Shown here piece by piece: positions 2,736 to 46,481 of a DNA stretch of 64,000 nucleotides. Below the pieces are notes generated by a model that worked only from the letters and a program-made list of their open reading frames with translations, did not search any database and was not told the DNA's origin. The stretch comes from Candidatus Synechococcus calcipolaris G9 (GTDB taxonomy: Bacteria > Cyanobacteriota > Cyanobacteriia > Thermosynechococcales > Thermosynechococcaceae), in assembly GCF_029582805.1 (NCBI RefSeq), contig NZ_JAKKUT010000002.1:1699747-1763746 (forward strand). The letters are read 5' to 3'. The first letter of the stretch is position 1. Each line of letters begins with the position of its first letter. The position numbers and the translations under genes are program-made.

Positions 2736-3452
2736 ATGCAATCTCCAATCAACCACCTCATTTCCCTTTCTCTTTTGAGTACCGCTATTTTTGGATTTAA
2801 CTCAATGGCTGTGGCCCAAGTCACTCCCCCTGGACAATTTGGTGTGGATAATCCGGTATTGCAACGGGCCCGGAATTTAGCCCGCCAAGCAGGGGAACGG
2901 GTGAATGGAGGGTTAACCCGTTATCGGGCAGAAGCTTCTATGCATGGCCCCGCCAGTCAATCACCCTTCGTGGATAATGGCGATAGCACATTTACGTTTA
3001 CCTTTTTAGGGGGAGCGCCGGCCCAGCCTCCGACCATTGAAACCGTTGTCACAGTTGCCTATGATGCCTCCACCATTACGGTGAACTACAATGGCCCGAT
3101 CCGTAGTGGTGAGGCAACCCTGACCCCAGTTGAGTTCACAGAAACAGAAGCACCTACCCCAGATACGCCGGAAATCCAGCGGGGCATGAACTTGGCTCGT
3201 CAAGCTGCGGAAAAGGCCAATGGAGGGCTAGGGGCTTACCGTGCTGAAATGGCCATGTATGATGCAAACCTTGCCCCATGGCGGGTGAATTCAGACGGTA
3301 GCTTAACCTTTGATTTTTATGGTGCCCCCCCGAATGGCACAGTGGCAACCGTTCAAAGTATTGTCACGGTTTCCGAAAATGGCTCAGTGGTGACAATTAA
3401 CTATAACGGCCCGGTTCAATCTCCCATGCCGGGCGATCGGGCATTAAACTAA
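2736..3452 (+). CDS. Secreted protein with tandemly duplicated domain
   Basis: I do not recognise a named family. The 238-residue product starts with a Sec-type signal peptide, with a hydrophobic core at residues 8-24 and likely cleavage after AVAQ. The rest is two copies of one unit of about 85-90 residues. Each unit begins with an amphipathic helix (RNLARQAGERVNGG near residue 47; MNLARQAAEKANGG near residue 150), then RYRAE or AYRAE, then beta-rich sequence ending in TVNYNGP or TINYNGP. The copies have diverged at roughly half of positions, so the duplication is old. It probably acts in the periplasm or outside the cell; function is unknown. Confidence 0.8.
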   Translation: MQSPINHLISLSLLSTAIFGFNSMAVAQVTPPGQFGVDNPVLQRARNLARQAGERVNGGLTRYRAEASMHGPASQSPFVDNGDSTFTFTFLGGAPAQPPTIETVVTVAYDASTITVNYNGPIRSGEATLTPVEFTETEAPTPDTPEIQRGMNLARQAAEKANGGLGAYRAEMAMYDANLAPWRVNSDGSLTFDFYGAPPNGTVATVQSIVTVSENGSVVTINYNGPVQSPMPGDRALN

Positions 3453-29880: not shown

Positions 29881-30255
29881 ATGGCAACAGGTCGGCGGGT
29901 TGCGCGTGTTGCAGAGTTGATTAAGCGGGAAGTGAGCCAAATGCTGATGTCCGATATCCGAGATGAACGGGTGGGGGCGGGCATGGTCAGTGTGACGGAT
30001 GTGAATGTTTCCGGGGATCTGCAACACGCCAAGATATTTGTGAGTATCTATGGCTCCGATGCGATCCGTAAATCGACGATGGATGGTCTCAAGGCAGCAT
30101 CGGGCTTTGTTCGCAGCGAATTAGGGCAGCGGGTGCGGTTGCGACGGACACCGGAGGTTGTTTTTGTGGAAGATCGCTCCTTTGAAAAGGGGATGCAGGT
30201 CTTGTCCCTGTTGCACCAACTGGAACGGGAACGAAAGGAGCAGGAACCCACGTAG
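29881..30255 (+). CDS. rbfA: Ribosome-binding factor A
   Basis: RbfA binds the 30S subunit and assists 16S rRNA 5'-end maturation, especially in the cold. The 124-residue product has the KH-like fold motifs [41 protein letters not shown] and [18 protein letters not shown]. The upstream TTAAGGGAG at 29866-29874 is a strong ribosome-binding site for this ATG. Eleven bases after its stop begins the first copy of the long direct repeat that bounds the accessory island. Confidence 0.96.
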
Positions 30256-30265
30256 TTTAGTTAAG

Positions 30266-30372
30266 TGGCTGGGTTCAATTAACCTAAACATACTGGTAAA
30301 GGCTATAGTCTCCCTGCCTGGGGGCTACACCGCGATTCCCTTCTCTTACCAGTAATTGTGCCTACCTACTTA
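30266..30372 (+). repeat. Left copy of ~110-bp imperfect direct repeat flanking island
   Basis: This sequence recurs in the same orientation at 34808-34920. Near-identical blocks are TGGCTGGGTTCAATTAACCT with AAACAT after it, then TCTCCCTGC, GCTACAC followed by GCGATTCCCTTCTCTTAC, then AAGTAATT or CAGTAATT and CCTACCTACTTA. This copy contains ACTGGTAA (30292-30299) and its complement TTACCAGT (30346-30353), plus the small hairpin GGTT/AACC. It begins just after the rbfA stop. It could be a target duplication, a recombination (att) site or a family of intergenic repeats. Confidence 0.85.
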
Positions 30373-30647
30373 CGCTAAAAACTTTGCTTGTTAAGGAGTT
30401 TGAACAAAAATGAAGTTTTGTGTATGTTAGACCTAGCAACTTTTGACACCTATATATTTATGTGATAGGGTGCATTCTATCTTTATGAATAGAGAGTTCT
30501 GGCTTTCCATTACTAAATTAGCTAGGCTGCTAATCGCTGCCTAATCAATAGTTATACTGCTCAGCCTGCTGATTGGGACGTACTTGCAGGTTACTTGTGC
30601 CAGCGGCTAGATTAATAGCAGATATTTGCTCTAAAAGCATTAAGAAT

Positions 30648-33572
30648 ATGAGTCTTCAAACTTCGGAAAAGATCAAGGAATTGAATAAGTGGGTATTACA
30701 AGCGTTTGAAGACTCCGTGGTAGAAGACATCCTTAATAATGCAAGGAAAGCGGGCGAAGCTTTATGCAAAGCGGTTATATTGCATCATTATGATGAGATA
30801 AAAGGAAGCAAAATAATTCTTGGAGAAGAAAAAATAAATGGCACTGTTAAACGCGAACGTCAGCTAAGTTTTTCTGGGCTAATTGATGTCGTTGTTTATG
30901 AACAGGATGAAAACTACATAATTGTTAAGCCAAAGTCTGTTAGAAACAAAATAAAAAATTATTTAGAAACAATCAGAATTCATGGAAATCCTGCTTCTCA
31001 TGATACAAATGGCCCAAACGATTTGAGCAGTCTAGCAGACGTAAAATTTACCAAGTTTGCCTTAGTCCAACTTATTTCTTGGTTCTATAAAGATTTCATA
31101 ACTAAGCCTATTCCTCAAAGAATGCTTCAATATATAGGTGGTATCGAGTCCAATTATATTGATACAGAAAAAGAAACAAGCCTTTACGAAGATGTAAGGG
31201 GTTTAGATATTGTAAAAATTCAATACCCGAAGCAGAAAGTTCTTTTACAGGCGAAAGTTAATGATCCTCAAAAGAAGATCAGCTATGAGTTTGTGACAGT
31301 TGAGGTTGCAAATAGCCTCTTAATTGGTTACGTTTTTGTTAGGAAGAATATTTCAATAAGCATCACTTTGCAGCATTTTCTTGATGAATTAACGTGTAAT
31401 TTAGCAAATCTAAACATATGCTCTCCACGAGTTATCAGTTCTGACACTGGTAAGGAGGTAAATAGAATAGCTAGCATCCAAGACAAGTTCAAGGAAATAA
31501 CCAACGATAGCCTATTCAAAATAACAAATTTCTTTTACATCGATGATTTTGTTTGGCAGTATTGCTTATCAGAGTACGCTAAATTGCTCGACCTAGATCT
31601 AGAAAATGAACAGTATTTTGTTGATCAGGAACTCTTTCAACTTCAAGACAATCAGTCGATAGAATTAAAGCCTAGTCTTCAATACATGGGACAGATAATT
31701 AATTCTCCCGAGAAGCAAGAGCCAGTCAATATAGTTGTAGGACGTGCAGGAGTTGGTAAAACCACCTTTTGTGAACAGGTAGTAAGTTTAGTAAATGGAA
31801 TCGACAAGAAGAGAGCTTTACTTATTTCTTCTACTGACTTACGTAATGCAAATGCTGATTTTACTGTCAAAAGTTTAACTGATTTGTATAGGCTGTTTGT
31901 AAAAGTTAATGAAGTTGACTCCACCGAAGCCTTGGAGTACAACAACTTTGAAATTAATATTAGTTGTGGAAACTTAGTGCTAATTATTGATGGTTTGGAT
32001 GAAATAGAATCAACATTAAAAGAAAAGTTCGATTTGGATTCTTTTCTTAAATCTGCTATTTCACTCAATGAAGCCTATAAAAGCTGTTCAATTATAATAA
32101 CTTCAAGAGACTATTATTTGGATAGATATATACTAAAAGATTCTGTAGCTGTATTTTTTCTCCGGGGATTTAGCAATGAGTTAGTTGATAAATATCTAGC
32201 TAAAAGGCTCTCTAAGCAAAGAGTTAAAGACGCTCAAAAATATTTGTCAATTTTTGATATTGCTGATCAAAGCCGACACACCCCTCTCTATCTATCATTA
32301 GTATGTGATTTAGTAGATCGAGATGAATATAACGAAGATGCTCTCCCTGATATATCGGAAAGCAGCTATTACTATTCCAAGTCAAAACTAGACAATTTAA
32401 TCTATAAACTCTTGCAGAGAGAGATTGGCAAGCAATCTCTAGAAATCAATTGTGACGACTACTTTGAGTTGATAGTTGAAATTTCTATCAGACATCAAGG
32501 CGAGATTTCAAAAAATGACCTAAATGAGTATATTGCAATCTTCTTCCCATCAATTGAACCTACTTCCAATATTGAGTCAGATAAGTACACGCAATTTTAT
32601 ATAAGTCCTCTCTTTTCCTATGATAGAAGTCGAGATACATTTAAGATAAGGTATGATTTTGTAGATCTGTGGGCAAAAGTCAGGTTTGTTTTATCAAACT
32701 TTGAAAGAGAGGTTCTTGACGGAGACTTAAAGAGATTATTAGTTGAAATTTACGATGGCTCTTCGGTGCTATTAGAAGAGCTAATTGAGATGAAAAATAT
32801 TGCTCAGACAGATTACATTGATCATGGCAGTAATATTCTCCAAAAGCTTATAAACGACTACCAAGAGTCTAATAAAAAAACAATTTTGACTCGAAAAGCT
32901 ATTTCTGGACTTCTATACTTTGTACTTTCAGACAAAAGTAAAAAGACTAAGAGTGATTATTCAAATTACCTTGTTCGGTTATTTAGATCTGACAAGCTAA
33001 ATCGTCTTTCTATATTTGGGAAATTCTTCCCATTAGACTTTCGTGGAATTCAAGTTCACGAAGGATTTTTTGAGCAGTTTCATGATTTTGAAAAATGTGA
33101 GTTTCCTTCTGATTGTACTGTGTTTTATTACTCAACCTTTAAAGGCATAAATCCAAAATTCAGTGCCACTCTTAATTCTTTGCTTTTTGATTCCACCTGT
33201 AACCTTAATGAAGATTTAAGAAGGGCTTTTGATGACAGCTTAAGCTCTGCCGGAAATCTTTCTAGCCAAGTTCGTACTAATCTTTATAGAATTCTAAAGG
33301 TTGGTTATCGCTCTGGTAGTTTCTCATGGAAATCAGAAAGTATATATAAAATGGCTCCAATTAAAGGACACGTTTCTTTAGTAGAATATCTAAGGTTTCT
33401 AACTTTAGAAGGTATATTGGAGAAACGTTCTGAGAGAGCTGGTAATGGTGATGGCTTTATAGTTTCTGCAAACTTCAAAGATGCTGCTAAAAACCTGATA
33501 GCGAACAATATCGTGAAACCTGAGTTAGAAACAGCCATCAAGAAAATATTAAAAGATTTTCACGGTTTATAG
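30648..33572 (+). CDS. HEPN/DUF4145-like and NACHT STAND ATPase, probable defence protein
   Basis: A 974-residue multidomain protein. Residues ~5-150 are helical with ARKAGEALCKAVILHHY and, near residue 115, IRIHGNPASH, the pattern of DUF4145/HEPN domains. Walker A GRAGVGKTTF lies near residue 365 and Walker B LVLIIDGLDEIE near 443, the acidic form typical of NACHT ATPases; helical and winged-helix-like sequence follows. No LRR, TPR or WD40 repeats and no membrane segment are evident. Bacterial NACHT proteins are antiphage sensors, and HEPN domains often act as RNases, so an abortive-infection role is inferred. The frame is open upstream to a TTG at 30573, but the ATG at 30648 is the better start. 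The gene is AT-rich and lacks HIP1. Confidence 0.85.
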   Translation: MSLQTSEKIKELNKWVLQAFEDSVVEDILNNARKAGEALCKAVILHHYDEIKGSKIILGEEKINGTVKRERQLSFSGLIDVVVYEQDENYIIVKPKSVRNKIKNYLETIRIHGNPASHDTNGPNDLSSLADVKFTKFALVQLISWFYKDFITKPIPQRMLQYIGGIESNYIDTEKETSLYEDVRGLDIVKIQYPKQKVLLQAKVNDPQKKISYEFVTVEVANSLLIGYVFVRKNISISITLQHFLDELTCNLANLNICSPRVISSDTGKEVNRIASIQDKFKEITNDSLFKITNFFYIDDFVWQYCLSEYAKLLDLDLENEQYFVDQELFQLQDNQSIELKPSLQYMGQIINSPEKQEPVNIVVGRAGVGKTTFCEQVVSLVNGIDKKRALLISSTDLRNANADFTVKSLTDLYRLFVKVNEVDSTEALEYNNFEINISCGNLVLIIDGLDEIESTLKEKFDLDSFLKSAISLNEAYKSCSIIITSRDYYLDRYILKDSVAVFFLRGFSNELVDKYLAKRLSKQRVKDAQKYLSIFDIADQSRHTPLYLSLVCDLVDRDEYNEDALPDISESSYYYSKSKLDNLIYKLLQREIGKQSLEINCDDYFELIVEISIRHQGEISKNDLNEYIAIFFPSIEPTSNIESDKYTQFYISPLFSYDRSRDTFKIRYDFVDLWAKVRFVLSNFEREVLDGDLKRLLVEIYDGSSVLLEELIEMKNIAQTDYIDHGSNILQKLINDYQESNKKTILTRKAISGLLYFVLSDKSKKTKSDYSNYLVRLFRSDKLNRLSIFGKFFPLDFRGIQVHEGFFEQFHDFEKCEFPSDCTVFYYSTFKGINPKFSATLNSLLFDSTCNLNEDLRRAFDDSLSSAGNLSSQVRTNLYRILKVGYRSGSFSWKSESIYKMAPIKGHVSLVEYLRFLTLEGILEKRSERAGNGDGFIVSANFKDAAKNLIANNIVKPELETAIKKILKDFHGL

Positions 33573-33587
33573 TAGTAAATAGCGCAG

Positions 33588-33673
33588 TATAACAATGCCC
33601 ATGCACCCGATCGTCGAGAGGTTACCTGTTTAAGTTCGAGGTTGTCTTCGGCGTGTGACGGGCATCGTTAGCC
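33588..33673 (+). other. Integron attC-like recombination site (candidate)
   Basis: Sixteen bases after the NACHT stop, TAACAATGCCCATGCAC at 33591 pairs imperfectly with the end GTGTGACGGGCATCGTTA near 33653-33670, followed by GCC. The terminal TAAC...GTTA with ATGCCC/GGGCAT arms, ~86 bases long and with an imperfect palindromic centre (CCGA/TCGG), is the architecture of integron attC sites. The R-box consensus is only partly matched. No integrase is in the window. Confidence 0.6.
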
Positions 33674-33741
33674 TGTAAATTTGGGAATCCTTTGCGTGCA
33701 AGAATGTTGCTTTTGACTCATTACTGAAGGAAATAAAGAGT

Positions 33742-34086
33742 ATGGATCAACTCGTGAATAAGATTGCTGCACTTGGTGTACCTGGTCTAGTGCTCGTAGT
33801 TGCTATGGCGGTTACAGGTTGGGCGGGTGCTGCTGCATTAACTGCGTCTTTAGCCGTTCTTGGCGGTTCATTTGGGATTCTTGGAGGAATTGCAGTACTT
33901 GGAATTCTTGGACTAATCTCAAAAGGTTTATCAGACTATGGGTTTGAAGCTATTTTCAAAGCAACTGTAGACGAGTTAAGGAGAAAAGGTAAGTCCAAAG
34001 TCGATATAGAGCGGGAGGTTAAATCATATCCAATTTCACGAGATTTGAAGCTGAAGATCAAGGATTACCTCCGGACAATGGCATAG
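33742..34086 (+). CDS. Glycine-rich hydrophobic small protein, possible membrane effector
   Basis: A 114-residue protein with an N-terminal hydrophobic, Gly/Ala-rich half (residues ~10-65: VPGLVLVVAMAVTGWAGAAA, then GGSFGILGGIAVLGILGLI) carrying several small-xxx-small repeats. The C-terminal half is charged and helical (DELRRKGKSKVDIEREVKSY, LKIKDYLR). I have seen similar cyanobacterial hypotheticals but know no function. The composition suits a protein that inserts into or oligomerises in membranes. It sits between the NACHT gene and a toxin-antitoxin pair, just after an attC-like site, so an effector or toxin role is a reasonable inference. Confidence 0.7.
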   Translation: MDQLVNKIAALGVPGLVLVVAMAVTGWAGAAALTASLAVLGGSFGILGGIAVLGILGLISKGLSDYGFEAIFKATVDELRRKGKSKVDIEREVKSYPISRDLKLKIKDYLRTMA

Positions 34087-40893: not shown

Positions 40894-41289
40894 TCACTGA
40901 GAGCGTTGCTGTTTCAGAATTTGCACCTGTTCAGGGGTGAAAATTTGCAGCATTTCTTGCTGAGTGAGTTGCATCACCTTGGCCAGTTCCACTTTTTGGG
41001 CTGGCCGCAAGTTCATTCCCTTCATCGCTTCTTCCGTGGTTTTACCTTGGCGAATGGCGGTTCTAAAGGCCCGGCGTTGGCTTGGCTCTAAAATTGCCAT
41101 AATGCGATCGTTGGTTTTTAAGGTCAACCTAAGGAGAGATTGGCGTTGTTGTTGGGATAGGTTTAATTGCTGCTGTTGGGCCGGGTTTAATAGGGCACCC
41201 CCAGCTTGGGCCTGAACCGGTATGGTTTGGCTACTCATACCTACACCAATGAAGAGCATTAGAGCGATCGCCCAATAGTACCGTTTCAT
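40894..41289 (-). CDS. Secreted helical protein, Spy/LTXXQ-like pattern
   Basis: A 131-residue precursor with a signal peptide (hydrophobic core WAIALMLFIGVGM, cleavage near PVQAQ). The mature part is glutamine-rich and helical (NPAQQQQLNLSQQQRQSLLR, AKVMQLTQQEMLQIFTPEQV). Repeated L-x-x-x-Q spacing, with LTQQE and FTPEQ, resembles Spy/CpxP-type periplasmic chaperones, though I cannot confirm membership. I start at the ATG at 41289; 41304 would add five residues. Monocistronic. Confidence 0.7.
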   Translation of the reverse strand: MKRYYWAIALMLFIGVGMSSQTIPVQAQAGGALLNPAQQQQLNLSQQQRQSLLRLTLKTNDRIMAILEPSQRRAFRTAIRQGKTTEEAMKGMNLRPAQKVELAKVMQLTQQEMLQIFTPEQVQILKQQRSQ

Positions 41290-41384
41290 TACGTTCATCA
41301 CCAAAGCTCCGTGTAACGTTTGAGCCTATTGGATCCATTGTAGTGAATTATCCCTATTCCTAGACGGATAATTTTTTTGTTGGG

Positions 41385-41630
41385 TCAGAAAACATCTCGC
41401 AGCGGCAGTTCAATCCCATCCACAATTGGAACCGGAACTCCTCGGGAAAGATGAAAATAAATCCAATCTTCCAGTAACTCGGTTAAATGGTGGCGACAAT
41501 CCAGAATGGTATTTCCCTCCGCAACTACCCCATCAAAGCCGGGAATGCAACCATGAATTAAACCATCCTGATGATCGTGTTCGTAAACTGCTCGGGCCAT
41601 GGCGGCATTCATATAGTCAGACAACAGCAT
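41385..41630 (-). CDS. HicB-like antitoxin (orphan)
   Basis: An 81-residue protein with the HicB partial RNase H-like fold: YEHDHQDGLIHGCIPGFDGV followed by NTILDCRHHLTELLEDWIYF, and PIVDGIELP near the end. Cyanobacterial HicB antitoxins usually sit next to a HicA toxin (YcfA); no HicA-like frame lies in the flanking bases, so it seems orphaned. I use the ATG at 41630 because the longer frame (from 41690) would overlap the end of the protoporphyrinogen oxidase gene. Confidence 0.75.
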   Translation of the reverse strand: MLLSDYMNAAMARAVYEHDHQDGLIHGCIPGFDGVVAEGNTILDCRHHLTELLEDWIYFHLSRGVPVPIVDGIELPLRDVF

Positions 41631-41659
41631 GGCGATCAATCCTAGGAGTTCATATACAT

Positions 41660-43109
41660 TTAGACGTTCTCGGGCGGCAACGAATTCCACGTTTGGTTAA
41701 TGTTGGCTGCGATCTCATTGCCCTGTTGAACCCGATCGCCCAGGGCCACGCCACCAATATAGTTACTGCATAGGAATAATCCCGGAAGCTGTTTCAGATG
41801 GGTCTGAATGGATTCTAATTGTTGACCATAGCCCAGGGTGTACTGGGGAATGGCCCGTTGCCAACGTTTAACCGATAGGAGTCGTCCCTGGTTGGGAGAT
41901 AGACCAAGTACACGGTGCAGATCCTGTTTCACAATGGCAGCGATCGCCTCAGAGGAGAGAGTGGTCAATTGGGGATCCGTTGCCCCACCAATAAAGCTAG
42001 TAAACATCTGCCAACCTGGGGGAGTCCGGCCCGAAAATAAACAGGATGACCAAATGGTTCCTAGGGTACGAATCCCCTGATTACGGGGAATTAAATGGCC
42101 AAATCCTGGCCGTTGAGGCGGAACGGCTCCATCAGGATAGGCGAGAACAACGCAGGCAACCCCAGGATAGGGAATGGTTTCTAGGGCATCACTGGCTAAG
42201 GTGGCATGGGGCCGTAGTAGGGTTGCGGCAACGTAGGCAGGAATCGCCAAAACCAGCTGATGGGCATGGATGTCTTGATGCCCCTCGGCCCGTTCCACGG
42301 TAATGTGAAAGCCGCCATCCCCCAGGGGAGTAATGGATGTAGCCTGTGCCCCTAAATGAATGTGATCCCCTAGACGGGTGGCGATCGCCGTGGGTAAGGT
42401 TTCCAATCCTCCTTGAAAGGACCCCAGTTCACCGGGTCGCATTTTTGCAAGGGTCAGTTTTGGGTTGGGTACGGCCGAGGGCTGAGATTTGCGAGTTTGC
42501 CGTAGGCGTAGGGCCCCAGGCACCAACCCCCCCCCCCAATTTCTCTAGTTGGACAATGCGCCGAAAGGCTGCGGCCGCACTTAACTGGGCTGGATCACCG
42601 GCATAGACCCCCGACACAAAGGGGGCCACCAGTCGCTCCAACACTTCCTGTCCGAGGTGACGTTGGAAAAAATCCGTCACCGATTCATCCCCAGAACCCA
42701 GGCGGGGCGGTACAAATCCCACGGACCCAAGGCCCGCCCGTAGTTTCCCCCAGGGGGAGAGCAAACCAGAGGTAATGAGGGATAGGGGTCGGGTGGGTTC
42801 TAAGGCATGGAGTTTCTGCTGCCAGTAGATATAGCGAGGTAATTGGCGATCGCCCCGCAGAATCTGATCATTCAGATTTAATTCCGCAATCAATTCCAAG
42901 AGGGCCGGGGTTGGGGCAAAACTGGTGGGCCCCTCCTCCCAAAGAAAACCGTCTTCCCTTTGGGTCGTAATGTTTCCACCCACCCGATCTCCCGCTTCAA
43001 TCACCTGGACAGAGCGATCGGGCGCCAGTTGATGAAGCCGCCAGGCCACCGTCAAACCACTAATGCCAGCCCCAATGACTAGGCAATCAACCGTTGCTGA
43101 CCCTACCAC
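41660..43109 (-). pseudogene. hemY: Protoporphyrinogen oxidase (HemY type), frameshifted at poly-G
   Basis: The oxygen- and FAD-dependent oxidase converts protoporphyrinogen IX to protoporphyrin IX for heme and chlorophyll. The N-terminal part (43109 down to ~42538) has CLVIGAGISGLTVAWRL and VIEAGDRVGGNITT. The remainder (42526 to 41660) continues in another frame with ELGSFQGGLETLP and ends LCSNYIGGVALGDRVQQGNE. The break is at a run of 11 G on the coding strand (C at 42527-42537). One G fewer gives an unbroken 482-residue protein reading LEKLGGGLVPGALRLRQ. So this is a sequencing error, a slipped allele or a phase-variable gene. Both halves look otherwise intact. Confidence 0.88.
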
Positions 43110-43140
43110 TCCCTAATTCCCCATCCAAAATGAGTTAAAC

Positions 43141-43344
43141 CTAAAACCGCTTAAACAAGGTATCCAGATATACCCGAGCCGTGCGGCGATCGCAATCTCC
43201 ATTTTGCAGCAAAAAGAGCGACAATGCCGCCACAAACACCCGATCCTGATCCCAGTCGGGATGGCTCTCCAAGTAAAACTTAAGGGTTTCGTGTAGGTCT
43301 TCCGGAATTTCCGCCAGAATACTAATCGTTGCCTGAGCATTCAT
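43141..43344 (-). CDS. DUF2811 protein
   Basis: A 67-residue cyanobacterial DUF2811 protein: ISILAEIPEDLHETLKFYLE, SHPDWDQDRVFVAALSLFLL and DRRTARVYLDTLFKRF. Size and pattern match the family, which has no known function. I take the ATG at 43344; the open frame runs upstream to 43452, but the extra residues fall in non-coding sequence. It is the last gene before the DnaA-box-rich intergenic region. Confidence 0.88.
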   Translation of the reverse strand: MNAQATISILAEIPEDLHETLKFYLESHPDWDQDRVFVAALSLFLLQNGDCDRRTARVYLDTLFKRF

Positions 43345-43917
43345 AACAATCTTTACCCCATCTGTAGTGCACCAATAGGCCCTAACCCAAAAACTCACCC
43401 TGTGGAAACCTGTGGAAAACTCCATGACAAACTTCGGGATAACCCCAGGCAAAAGTGCCCGAAGTCCCCATTTGTGCTTTTGCAGCAGGCTCTAAGGTGA
43501 GTTCAGAAAAACCTAGTGGAATTACATTTTGTGATCTGTCGTTGGGACTGTCAATGTGAACTGGATAACATTTTGCGATCGCCACTAACGCAAGAATGCG
43601 GGTTTCAGCGGGTCATCGTTCCTTGACTCAGTAAAAATAAGGCAGATCCTCGGTAATCCCCAAAAAGACAGCAACCATCGATTCTACCGTTGCCCCCTGT
43701 GGAAAACTTTTGGGAAACTTGTGGAAAACTCCTGAATCTCTGGGGAAAGCTTGGGGAAATATTCCCAAAAATGGGGGGAATACCCTCTCTGGTCAAGAAT
43801 CTACAAAAGTCATGAAACCTTAACTTATATGGTTAAAATATTACAAATATGCTAAGTAAACCCTGTGTCGGCGATCGCTGGATTATGATGTAAGCTACGC
43901 GATCATAGGCCTCAACC
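43345..43917. other. Intergenic region with DnaA-box-like cluster (candidate origin)
   Basis: TGTGGAAAA, the complement of the DnaA-box form TTTTCCACA used in cyanobacteria, occurs at 43411, 43698 and 43720, with a one-mismatch copy TGTGGAAAC at 43401. All face the same way. Degenerate copies (TTGGGAAAC, TGGGGAAAG, TTGGGGAAA) follow to about 43760. An AT-rich tract lies at 43801-43860 and could unwind. The region lies between divergent genes. It has features of a replication origin or a DnaA-controlled promoter. No dnaA or dnaN is nearby, which weakens the origin reading. Confidence 0.4.
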
Positions 43918-45303
43918 ATGAAAAAATCCTTTAAGTTCTTTAGCCTTGCCCTAGGAACCCTAAGCTATATTGCTGTTACAACCTCTGGGAGCTTTGCTAA
44001 ACCCAATGTGGTTCTTGAGTCGCCATCTAATCCTGAAGTAGACATTGTGGCTGCGAGTCGGCCGGAGGTATCGCCCCAATTAAGCCAGGCGGTTTTGAAT
44101 ATGGAGGGCCGCCTCAAAAAAGAGTTTGATGATTATTTTGGCCGAGACTTGGCGGAGGTGACCCAAGCACCGGAGGACATGGCCGTCACCCTTGCCAAAA
44201 TTAGTGAAGCCACTGGCAGTAAAACCGCCGTGATGTGGGTGATTCCACGGGAAGCTGACCTCCACCTCGTCTTAATTACCCCCAACCAGCCCCCCATTGT
44301 CCGGGATTTAGAGGATGTGCCCAAGGATGTTCTTTTCCCGGTAGCAGAAACCTTTCAACGGGACATCTCCAGCCCTTTAACTCAGCAACCCAGCCTAGTC
44401 GCTGCCCAACAACTCTATGAGTGGATTATTGGCCCCTACGAAGAAGACTTTCTCAAACCCCAAGGCATTGAAACCATTCTCTTTTGTCTGGGGGCGGGGG
44501 TACGTACCATGCCCTTTGCTGCCCTCCACGATGGGGAGCAATTTTTAATTGAGAAATACACCCTCAGCCGCATTCCTGCCTTTAACCTGATCAGTATGGA
44601 GCCAGGGAATGTACGCCGTCCGCGCATCTTAGCCATGGGAGCTTCAGAATTTCCCAATCAGAGTCCCTTACCAGCGGTTCCGGTGGAAATTAATACGATT
44701 TTGCAACAGGTGCAAACCGGAAATCAGCGGGTACGCACCCAAGGGTTGTTAAATCGCTCCTTTACGATGCGTAATTTAGAGCGTAATTTGCGGCGACAAC
44801 GGCCAGATATTGTTCACCTAGCAACCCATGCTGAGTTCTTGCCCGGCAAACCCAGTAATTCCTACATTCAGCTATGGGATGATCGCCTTGGCCTGGATCA
44901 GGTGGATCAGGTGGAGTGGCGTTTACCGATGCTAGAACTACTCGTCTTGAGTGCTTGCCGCACCGCCGTGGGCGATCGGGATGCGGAGTTAGGGTTTGCG
45001 GGTCTGGCCCTACAATCGGGGGTAAAATCTGTCCTAGCCAGTCTTTGGTATGTGGATGACCTAGGGACTCTAGCCTTGATGAGTGAATTTTATGGCCAAC
45101 TGCCCCAGGAAGCAACCAAGGGAGAGGCCCTTCGCCAAGCCCAACTCAATTTACTCAATCAAACCGTGAAGGTGGAAAATCGTCAGCTAGAACTTTCCCA
45201 GACCCAAGTTGCATTGCCCAATACCCTCACTCGCATGGGGGACATTGATTTTAGTCATCCCCGCTACTGGGCGGCCTTCACCATGATTAGTAGTCCCTGG
45301 TAG
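43918..45303 (+). CDS. Secreted CHAT-domain caspase-like protein
   Basis: A 461-residue protein with a signal peptide (hydrophobic residues ~7-22) and a CHAT domain (residues ~160-461). The catalytic His-Cys pair of this clan CD protease family is visible: His304 in HLATHAEF and Cys347 in LVLSACRTAVG. RILAMGASEF, LPAVPVEI and LASLWYVDD are further CHAT blocks, and the end ATFTMI-type FTMISSPW is shared with the large protein at 58873-63336. The middle N-terminal part (residues ~60-150) is unassigned. It is likely periplasmic or exported. Substrate unknown. Confidence 0.9.
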   Translation: MKKSFKFFSLALGTLSYIAVTTSGSFAKPNVVLESPSNPEVDIVAASRPEVSPQLSQAVLNMEGRLKKEFDDYFGRDLAEVTQAPEDMAVTLAKISEATGSKTAVMWVIPREADLHLVLITPNQPPIVRDLEDVPKDVLFPVAETFQRDISSPLTQQPSLVAAQQLYEWIIGPYEEDFLKPQGIETILFCLGAGVRTMPFAALHDGEQFLIEKYTLSRIPAFNLISMEPGNVRRPRILAMGASEFPNQSPLPAVPVEINTILQQVQTGNQRVRTQGLLNRSFTMRNLERNLRRQRPDIVHLATHAEFLPGKPSNSYIQLWDDRLGLDQVDQVEWRLPMLELLVLSACRTAVGDRDAELGFAGLALQSGVKSVLASLWYVDDLGTLALMSEFYGQLPQEATKGEALRQAQLNLLNQTVKVENRQLELSQTQVALPNTLTRMGDIDFSHPRYWAAFTMISSPW

Positions 45304-45305
45304 GT

Positions 45306-46481
45306 TTACCTGGCCTTAAAATCAGCGATCGCCTTTTCTAAGAGGGGATTGAGTTTCTGGGCAGCCGTAGACCAATTAAACGAATCCCAATAGGCTTGAT
45401 AACAGGACTGCGCTAATTTTTGGTAATTTTCAGGAGACTGGCAGCATTGAGTTATTCTTTGCATGATTTGGTGAGGTAGATCATCCCGTCTTTCAAATAA
45501 ATACCCTGTCTTTTCATTAGACACAATTGTGCCAATTCCGCCAATGTTTGTTGCTAGGCATGGACAGCCATGGGCTAATGCTTCACAGTAAACAATGCCA
45601 TAGGATTCGGCAAAGGAGGTCATGATGAAAAAATCACTATCCAGATAAAGATTTGATATGCGAGTCCTATCCGCAGGATGATTCTTATCTAAAAAAGGAT
45701 AAATCGTAACCATGTCTTGCATGGAATCAGAAATCCTCGGTTCACACCCCACAATGGTCAAATGGGGTTTATATCCCTGAGTATTTAATAGAGATAGGAC
45801 ATCTAAGGCGGTTTGGCCATCCTTGCGTTGCCAATCACGGCCAATAAAGAGTAACTTGATTTCTTTGTGTTGCTGCCTTTGAATGCGCCGATGAATGGCT
45901 TGTTCCACTTCTGTGGGAGTAGGAATATGATCTAAGTTTGCACCAAAGGGAATACTAAATACCTTATAGGACTGAGCACCTAAGGTTTTCATCGCTGACG
46001 TAGCAGCCCATTCCGAGCTATAAATGGCAAAGGAACATCGTTCTAATGCTTTTCTATCCAGTGCTAATGACTGCTCTACACTATAATCACAAAATTTTGT
46101 ATAGTAATGACCGAGACTCAACTCAAATGTAGAATCATACCAAAATACGTAGGGCTTATTTGTTTTCACCAGTAGACCTGCCCAGGGATGCCAGGAAAAT
46201 ACTAAGTCATAATCTACGTTCAGAGATTTGAGCTTTTGATTTAAGGAGTACTTCCAGACTGTGTTCACAACTGGATCGGCATCTGTAAAATACTGCTTGT
46301 TATGCACTCTAGAATAAAATCGATGCTTTAATCCACCGTATTTGGAGGCAAAAAAATCCGGTATGTCGCAGCAAATAACCTGGTGACCTAACTCAATAAA
46401 AGATTTATAAATATAAAACGATATACCTGAGAAAACATTGATATCCGCTGGATTTTGAGGAGCAACATAGAGTATTTTCAT
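45306..46481 (-). CDS. GT4 family glycosyltransferase
   Basis: A 391-residue GT-B fold glycosyltransferase. The N-terminal domain opens KILYVAPQNPADINVFSGIS; the C-terminal donor domain has KLLFIGRDWQRKDGQTALDV and the EX7E-like block SFAESYGIVYCEALAHGCPC, typical of group 1 enzymes. It should add a sugar from a nucleotide donor to a surface glycan or glycolipid. The gene is AT-richer than the chaperone genes but contains one HIP1 site near its end. It follows the next GT4 gene by 12 bases. Its stop is two bases from the convergent CHAT gene's stop. Confidence 0.88.
   Translation of the reverse strand: MKILYVAPQNPADINVFSGISFYIYKSFIELGHQVICCDIPDFFASKYGGLKHRFYSRVHNKQYFTDADPVVNTVWKYSLNQKLKSLNVDYDLVFSWHPWAGLLVKTNKPYVFWYDSTFELSLGHYYTKFCDYSVEQSLALDRKALERCSFAIYSSEWAATSAMKTLGAQSYKVFSIPFGANLDHIPTPTEVEQAIHRRIQRQQHKEIKLLFIGRDWQRKDGQTALDVLSLLNTQGYKPHLTIVGCEPRISDSMQDMVTIYPFLDKNHPADRTRISNLYLDSDFFIMTSFAESYGIVYCEALAHGCPCLATNIGGIGTIVSNEKTGYLFERRDDLPHQIMQRITQCCQSPENYQKLAQSCYQAYWDSFNWSTAAQKLNPLLEKAIADFKAR

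Follow-up and report, generated by a model that had tools for sequence, protein, structure and literature searches.

What does a cluster of DnaA-box-like motifs do in a short intergenic region of a cyanobacterial chromosome? The cluster lies in the stretch of DNA analyzed here, a 64,000-nucleotide piece of the Candidatus Synechococcus calcipolaris G9 genome that we refer to as the window. The first-pass annotation offered two answers, a candidate replication origin or a region under DnaA control.

A cluster of DnaA boxes in a 573-base gap

The motifs occupy a non-coding gap of exactly 573 bases between a 67-residue DUF2811 gene on the minus strand (43141-43344; PF10929, E 4.5e-29) and a CHAT-domain gene on the plus strand (43918-45303; PF12770, E 5.7e-65). 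The inventory given earlier was confirmed, the exact and near copies by a motif scan: three exact copies of TGTGGAAAA, one near copy and several weaker copies, all on the plus strand. The left-hand group consists of two boxes 10 bp apart, TGTGGAAAC with one mismatch at 43401-43409 and an exact box at 43411-43419, a place where loci L003-L008 also have a box. The right-hand group, which we call the array, begins with an exact box at 43698-43706, followed 22 bp further on by another at 43720-43728, and this spacing is conserved in relatives. Three weak boxes of the array, TTTGGGAAA (43709-43717), TGGGGAAAG (43741-43749) and TGGGGAAAT (43752-43760), were read from the sequence by eye; start-to-start distances in the group are 11, 11, 21 and 11 bp, and in the alignment of relatives TGGGGAAA-type repeats follow the array. 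The AT-rich tract reported after the boxes is present at about 43790-43858. The earlier description did not include TAATCCCCA at 43654-43662 (TGGGGATTA on the minus strand), a weak box that points the other way and whose spacing is likewise conserved in relatives.

Boxes with at most one mismatch are not enriched over the whole window (24 found, 22.5 expected). The genome contains 38 exact boxes, and the window cluster is their second densest grouping. With the 27 exact boxes outside the likely oriC and the window cluster as background, the probability of at least three exact boxes in 573 bp is 1.7e-8, or about 1e-4 across the genome.

The array is conserved upstream of DUF2811

We compared 110 loci, made up of 30 relatives and 80 named contigs (the best 80 of 110 relatives found); both sets were found by likeness to the DUF2811 of the window, and some organisms occur in both. 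Among those best 80, the nearest named relatives of the window protein are Thermosynechococcus, at 92% identity. Of the TGTGGAAA boxes within 1200 bp upstream of DUF2811, 320 share one orientation and 7 are reversed; the corresponding counts within 1200 bp on the other side of the gene are 5 and 2, some loci being shorter than these flanks. A pair of boxes 20-23 or 42-44 bp apart lies upstream of the gene at 97 of the 110 loci (79 after removal of near-identical ones). The gaps between boxes are regular, with 148 of 198 measuring 20-23 bp, or two helix turns, and 31 measuring 9-12 bp, or one turn. At 59 of the 97 loci an inverted WWTCC[AC]CA precedes the first box of the array by 43-44 bp, while only 11 of 970 shuffled controls have any such motif within 75 bp. 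Two boxes 22 bp apart are also found in Hassallia, Spirirestis, Fortiea and Cyanomargarita (L061, L068, L075 and L110), which we take to be near Nostoc.

Counted by genome, a box pair occurs somewhere in 35 of 39, and by hand count it is upstream of DUF2811 in 21 of the 25 that were listed in full. The four without it there are G003, G023, G030 and G034, the last of which has a pair on the downstream side of the gene. G023, a marine-type genome, encodes two divergent DUF2811 relatives, one with one box per direction, 43 bp apart, upstream (L220) and one with a single reverse box (L221). We also looked for a conserved RNA: a search of 41000-46000 against Rfam gave nothing up to E 1, and RNAalifold on 27 aligned loci returned an energy of 0 for real and shuffled columns alike, which says little.

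The gene on the far side of the array varies, its largest cluster accounting for 12 of the 80 named loci. Because this neighbor is not conserved, the array goes with DUF2811, and the CHAT-domain gene, which we considered as a target, is probably not one. Behind DUF2811, also on the minus strand, the window has a HemY-type protoporphyrinogen oxidase at 41660-43109, split into two frames (42429-43109 and 41660-42526) that both match TIGR00562. The two frames overlap, reflecting a frame break that is either a sequencing error or real. A protoporphyrinogen oxidase gene follows DUF2811 in the same direction at 52 of the 80 named loci, comprising 22 of the HemY type, which was assigned by TIGR00562 in the window, and 30 that we take to be HemJ; no locus has both. 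The same arrangement is seen in 13 of the 30 relatives, mostly with shorter flanks. Since two unrelated enzymes for one step occupy the same place, gene order suggests that DUF2811 and the oxidase may be functionally linked.

The sequence pattern of DUF2811 at first hinted at a ribbon-helix-helix protein, an idea that found no backing in the searches. The predicted structure has three helices and is of low confidence (mean pLDDT 65), neither Foldseek (best E 2.3) nor a PDB profile search (best E 0.36) yielded a convincing structural match, and the weak Pfam hits of the protein name no ribbon-helix-helix family. No mention of DUF2811 turned up in the literature searched, and none of the matches listed is a paper describing an array at this gene; subscription papers were outside the scope of the search.

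Conserved blocks lie between the array and DUF2811

Alignment of relatives brought out two conserved blocks, TTGTCAATG and CATTGTGCGC, between the array and DUF2811. The window form of the first, CTGTCAATG at 43548-43556, is possibly the -35 element (TTGACA) of a DUF2811 promoter on the minus strand, and the window form of the second, ATTTTGTG at 43526-43533 (CATTGTGCGC in many relatives), possibly marks its -10 side. A further block, ACGAAAGAAT, appears in the window as ACGCAAGAAT at 43588-43597. When loci with less than 300 bp upstream were left out, TTGTCAATG was found with at most one mismatch at 130 of 148 loci, in which dnaA was either present or not looked for. A site resembling HLR1, using the consensus given in a passage of PMC11633204, was found with at most one mismatch at 32 of the 148 pooled loci; shuffles gave 2 in 444, and none of the 109 coding-side stretches has one. 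In the window itself the best HLR1 match has 4 mismatches, the same as in shuffles.

The notion that DUF2811 acts on dnaA by way of its own promoter blocks was rejected: four blocks searched for in 18 dnaA upstream regions showed no excess over shuffles. Neither TGTGGAA nor TTCCACA occurs in the 700 bp upstream of the 18 called dnaA starts, and the dnaA of the window's own genome has none upstream either. These regions came from 20 loci, of which L191 has no dnaA frame and L205 only 12 bp; for L190 and L203 the called start is uncertain.

A block GATAAGAATTGCAAA on the right-hand side of the array is present with at most three mismatches at 41 of 105 loci. It seems independent of both dnaA and DUF2811, because it is kept at three dnaA-less loci (L139, L173 and L175) and beside two broken DUF2811 genes (L182 and L183).

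DUF2811 and the spaced boxes are mostly missing where dnaA is

In a class-wide draw, dnaA was found in 283 of 289 genomes. DUF2811 was present in 281 of these 283, the two misses (G048 and G148) being fragmented genomes, and in one of the six that lack dnaA. An order-level draw raised the number of dnaA-less genomes to 44 of 389, the six included; 20 of the 44 were listed directly and 24 deduced from gaps in the genome numbering. DUF2811 is intact in 6 of them, broken in 3 and absent from 35. Further dnaA-positive genomes had the gene in 15 of 15 and then 76 of 80 cases (one of the 76 broken). Pooled, DUF2811 is present in 372 of 378 dnaA-positive genomes (one broken) versus intact in 6 of 44 dnaA-less ones, for a Fisher P of 2e-41, a value that ignores relatedness and treats as independent events genome counts that are not. 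The genomes and loci in these comparison sets were partly chosen by hand. Four genomes with only weak PF00308 matches (G310, G351, G532 and G568) have no DUF2811 and, if counted as dnaA-positive, are contrary evidence.

The association is also visible within genera. In g162, both genes are absent from 6 of 6 genomes and both present in 3 of 3 dnaA-positive congeners; in g82 the figures are 2 of 2 and 11 of 11, and g138 supplies one genome of each kind. The dnaA-less members of g215 comprise two with no DUF2811 and two with a broken one, and its single dnaA-positive member has the gene. Genus g131 is mixed, with two intact, one broken and one missing DUF2811 among members without dnaA and 2 of 2 present among those with it, and g86 has DUF2811 both with and without dnaA. 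The opposite case is g209, which kept dnaA and has no intact DUF2811 in 4 of 4 genomes (three none, one broken). Intact DUF2811 without dnaA occurs in G147 and five other genomes.

Each genome of family f2 has 2-5 divergent DUF2811 relatives (E about 1e-15 to 1e-21) in place of a single close copy. In the dnaA-positive family f29 (G258, G472, G519 and genus g209), DUF2811 is in parts degenerate, broken or missing, as if decaying.

The boxes follow dnaA as well. Among extra loci with an intact DUF2811, the spaced pair is present at 33 of the 39 that have dnaA (in two of these 39 the dnaA match is weaker) and at 0 of 6 without (Fisher P 1e-4). A single box is kept at 3 of the 6 dnaA-less loci, and TTGTCAATG at 5 of the 6. 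Because TTGTCAATG stays, the loss that accompanies dnaA affects the boxes more than the region as a whole.

A candidate DnaA-binding element of the DUF2811 promoter

On balance, we favor the reading that the cluster serves the DUF2811 promoter as a regulatory element to which DnaA binds and that DUF2811 is a protein tied to DnaA function. This bears out the suggestion of a DnaA-controlled region as far as the place beside DUF2811, the lack of pairs where dnaA is gone and the joint loss are concerned; the control itself is predicted from sequence. Domain IV of Cyanothece DnaA is described in a passage of PMC4674748 as binding oriCs with TTTTCCACA boxes in vitro. We propose that DnaA would bind both the array, whose boxes share one helix face, and the inverted box at a distance of four turns, and that binding would raise or lower transcription of DUF2811. 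In many species, the protoporphyrinogen oxidase gene behind it, if cotranscribed, would be regulated too. DUF2811 would in turn serve DnaA function, in the control of initiation or of DnaA activity, closing a feedback loop. The joint pattern points to an as yet undescribed control circuit that may operate around DnaA. Against this reading stand the 6 of 39 dnaA-positive loci without a spaced pair, the position of the array far upstream of the supposed promoter, genus g209 and the six genomes with intact DUF2811 and no dnaA.

A more elaborate version, which we put forward tentatively, is a replication-control module in which DUF2811 would be a dedicated DnaA regulator and its gene would be set by DnaA through the array and by RpaB, a light- and redox-linked regulator, through the HLR1-like site found in many species and not visible in the window. 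The place of DUF2811 before the oxidase would then tie initiation to pigment synthesis.

In Bacillus subtilis and Caulobacter, promoters of the DnaA regulon, as excerpts of PMC7198777 describe them, likewise have boxes in the intergenic DNA upstream of a gene. The array differs in being conserved over the sampled cyanobacterial families, with a fixed spacing and an inverted box, and its regulation is putative; its presumed target, the uncharacterized gene DUF2811, disappears along with dnaA.

The main rival, which we hold to be less likely, is that the array instead resembles datA or DARS of Escherichia coli, titrating DnaA or altering its nucleotide state and standing beside DUF2811 by history or because the DUF2811 protein is its partner, with promoter effects secondary. 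Like datA, it is a cluster of strong and weak boxes away from oriC, and the inverted box at a fixed spacing and the loss of boxes along with dnaA would fit such a site. However, datA, according to part of PMC5835720, requires an IHF site between its boxes and stimulates hydrolysis of DnaA-ATP, whereas the array is known from its sequence and is fixed to a gene promoter. The same source places DARS1 and DARS2 within promoter regions. They have few boxes in a set orientation, and the array, with its inverted box at a fixed distance from the direct boxes, may resemble them in this; it differs in box order and number, being a direct array with two-turn spacing. Titration would not require the boxes to stay with one gene in a phylum whose genomes are shuffled, yet the array keeps its place and the DUF2811 gene itself goes with dnaA. 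A second array in several relatives would also titrate DnaA, but this fits either view, and promoter control and a role like that of datA or DARS could both be true.

We consider it rather unlikely that the boxes bind DnaA while DUF2811, with a role for example in tetrapyrrole metabolism, disappears alongside dnaA through a shared cause such as relaxed copy-number control or symbiosis. Loss of dnaA accompanies high chromosome copy number in the portion of PMC7198777 concerned, a tetrapyrrole gene often lies behind DUF2811, and genus g209 lost DUF2811 and kept dnaA. The joint absence also extends, however, to genomes of ordinary size, such as those of g162 (4.8-6.1 Mb), whose dnaA-positive congeners have both genes. 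That a protein other than DnaA binds the TGTGGAAA array is very improbable: single boxes do persist at 3 of 6 dnaA-less loci, and DnaA binding at the array is itself predicted from sequence, but the likely oriC of this genome has the identical box and the pairs are gone from 6 of 6 dnaA-less loci.

The array is a concrete place to look for the role of DnaA in cyanobacteria, and DUF2811 is a candidate partner gene. Passages of PMC7198777 report that several cyanobacteria tolerate removal of DnaA unharmed and that its function there "remains unclear", and part of PMC6478999 describes binding of cyanobacterial DnaA to oriC as dependent on photosynthesis.

The likely replication origin lies elsewhere

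Least probable is a second origin of replication at the cluster, a reading that the AT-rich stretch after the boxes might invite and that is opposed by a much stronger oriC candidate elsewhere, by a skew that drops rather than rises and by the lack of a conserved trio ahead of the array. The proposal of a candidate origin was rejected, since the same contig has that stronger candidate at a distance of 1.26 Mb. This likely oriC (C2:487578-487795) is the densest DnaA-box cluster, with eight exact boxes in 218 bp, four per direction, adjoined by TAGTAGTAGTAG, a run of TAG trio repeats. The array has the same box sequence, but only three exact boxes belong to the window cluster, in one direction, beside DUF2811. 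Alignment of relatives, in place of a formal pattern run, showed no conserved DnaA-trio in the 30 bp before the array; a layout of boxes plus trio marks bacterial origins, and the published trio pattern is very loose, according to a passage of PMC8287927.

Measured over about 9 kb on each side, GC skew goes up at the likely oriC, from -0.071 to +0.008, and drops at the window cluster, from +0.037 to -0.007. The skew of 25 sampled stretches of contig C2 shows no clean V, and we treat it as supporting evidence only. The dnaA gene is apart from the likely oriC, at C2:232978, and inspection of the larger frames around the latter, by eye apart from three proteins that were scanned, turned up no dnaN to a distance of about 5 kb; dnaN beside oriC is called universal in cyanobacteria in part of PMC5987646. 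The likely oriC (L032:9578-9800, equal to G000:C2:487577-487799) is flanked by an ABC substrate-binding-like gene and a DUF2339 gene. Elsewhere in the window, 30001-34000 has a GC content down to 0.37 and a positive GC skew, unlike the rest, and is perhaps acquired DNA.

The refuting condition named in the first-pass annotation, similar clusters at many sites, applies only partly: the genome of the window has only the likely oriC besides, whereas a further array occurs in several relatives. In five genomes (G028, G029, G039, G045 and G165), it comprises three boxes with a spacing of 20-22 bp and lies about 100-550 bp past the end of guaA. Arrays on the guaA side are found in L207, L209, L210, L211 and L216, around position 3000, with guaA identified by NF000848, and a zinc-efflux CDF gene lies beside the further array in L209 and L212, which are given as two others. 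Judged by its boxes, the guaA-side array is a possible third conserved DnaA site.
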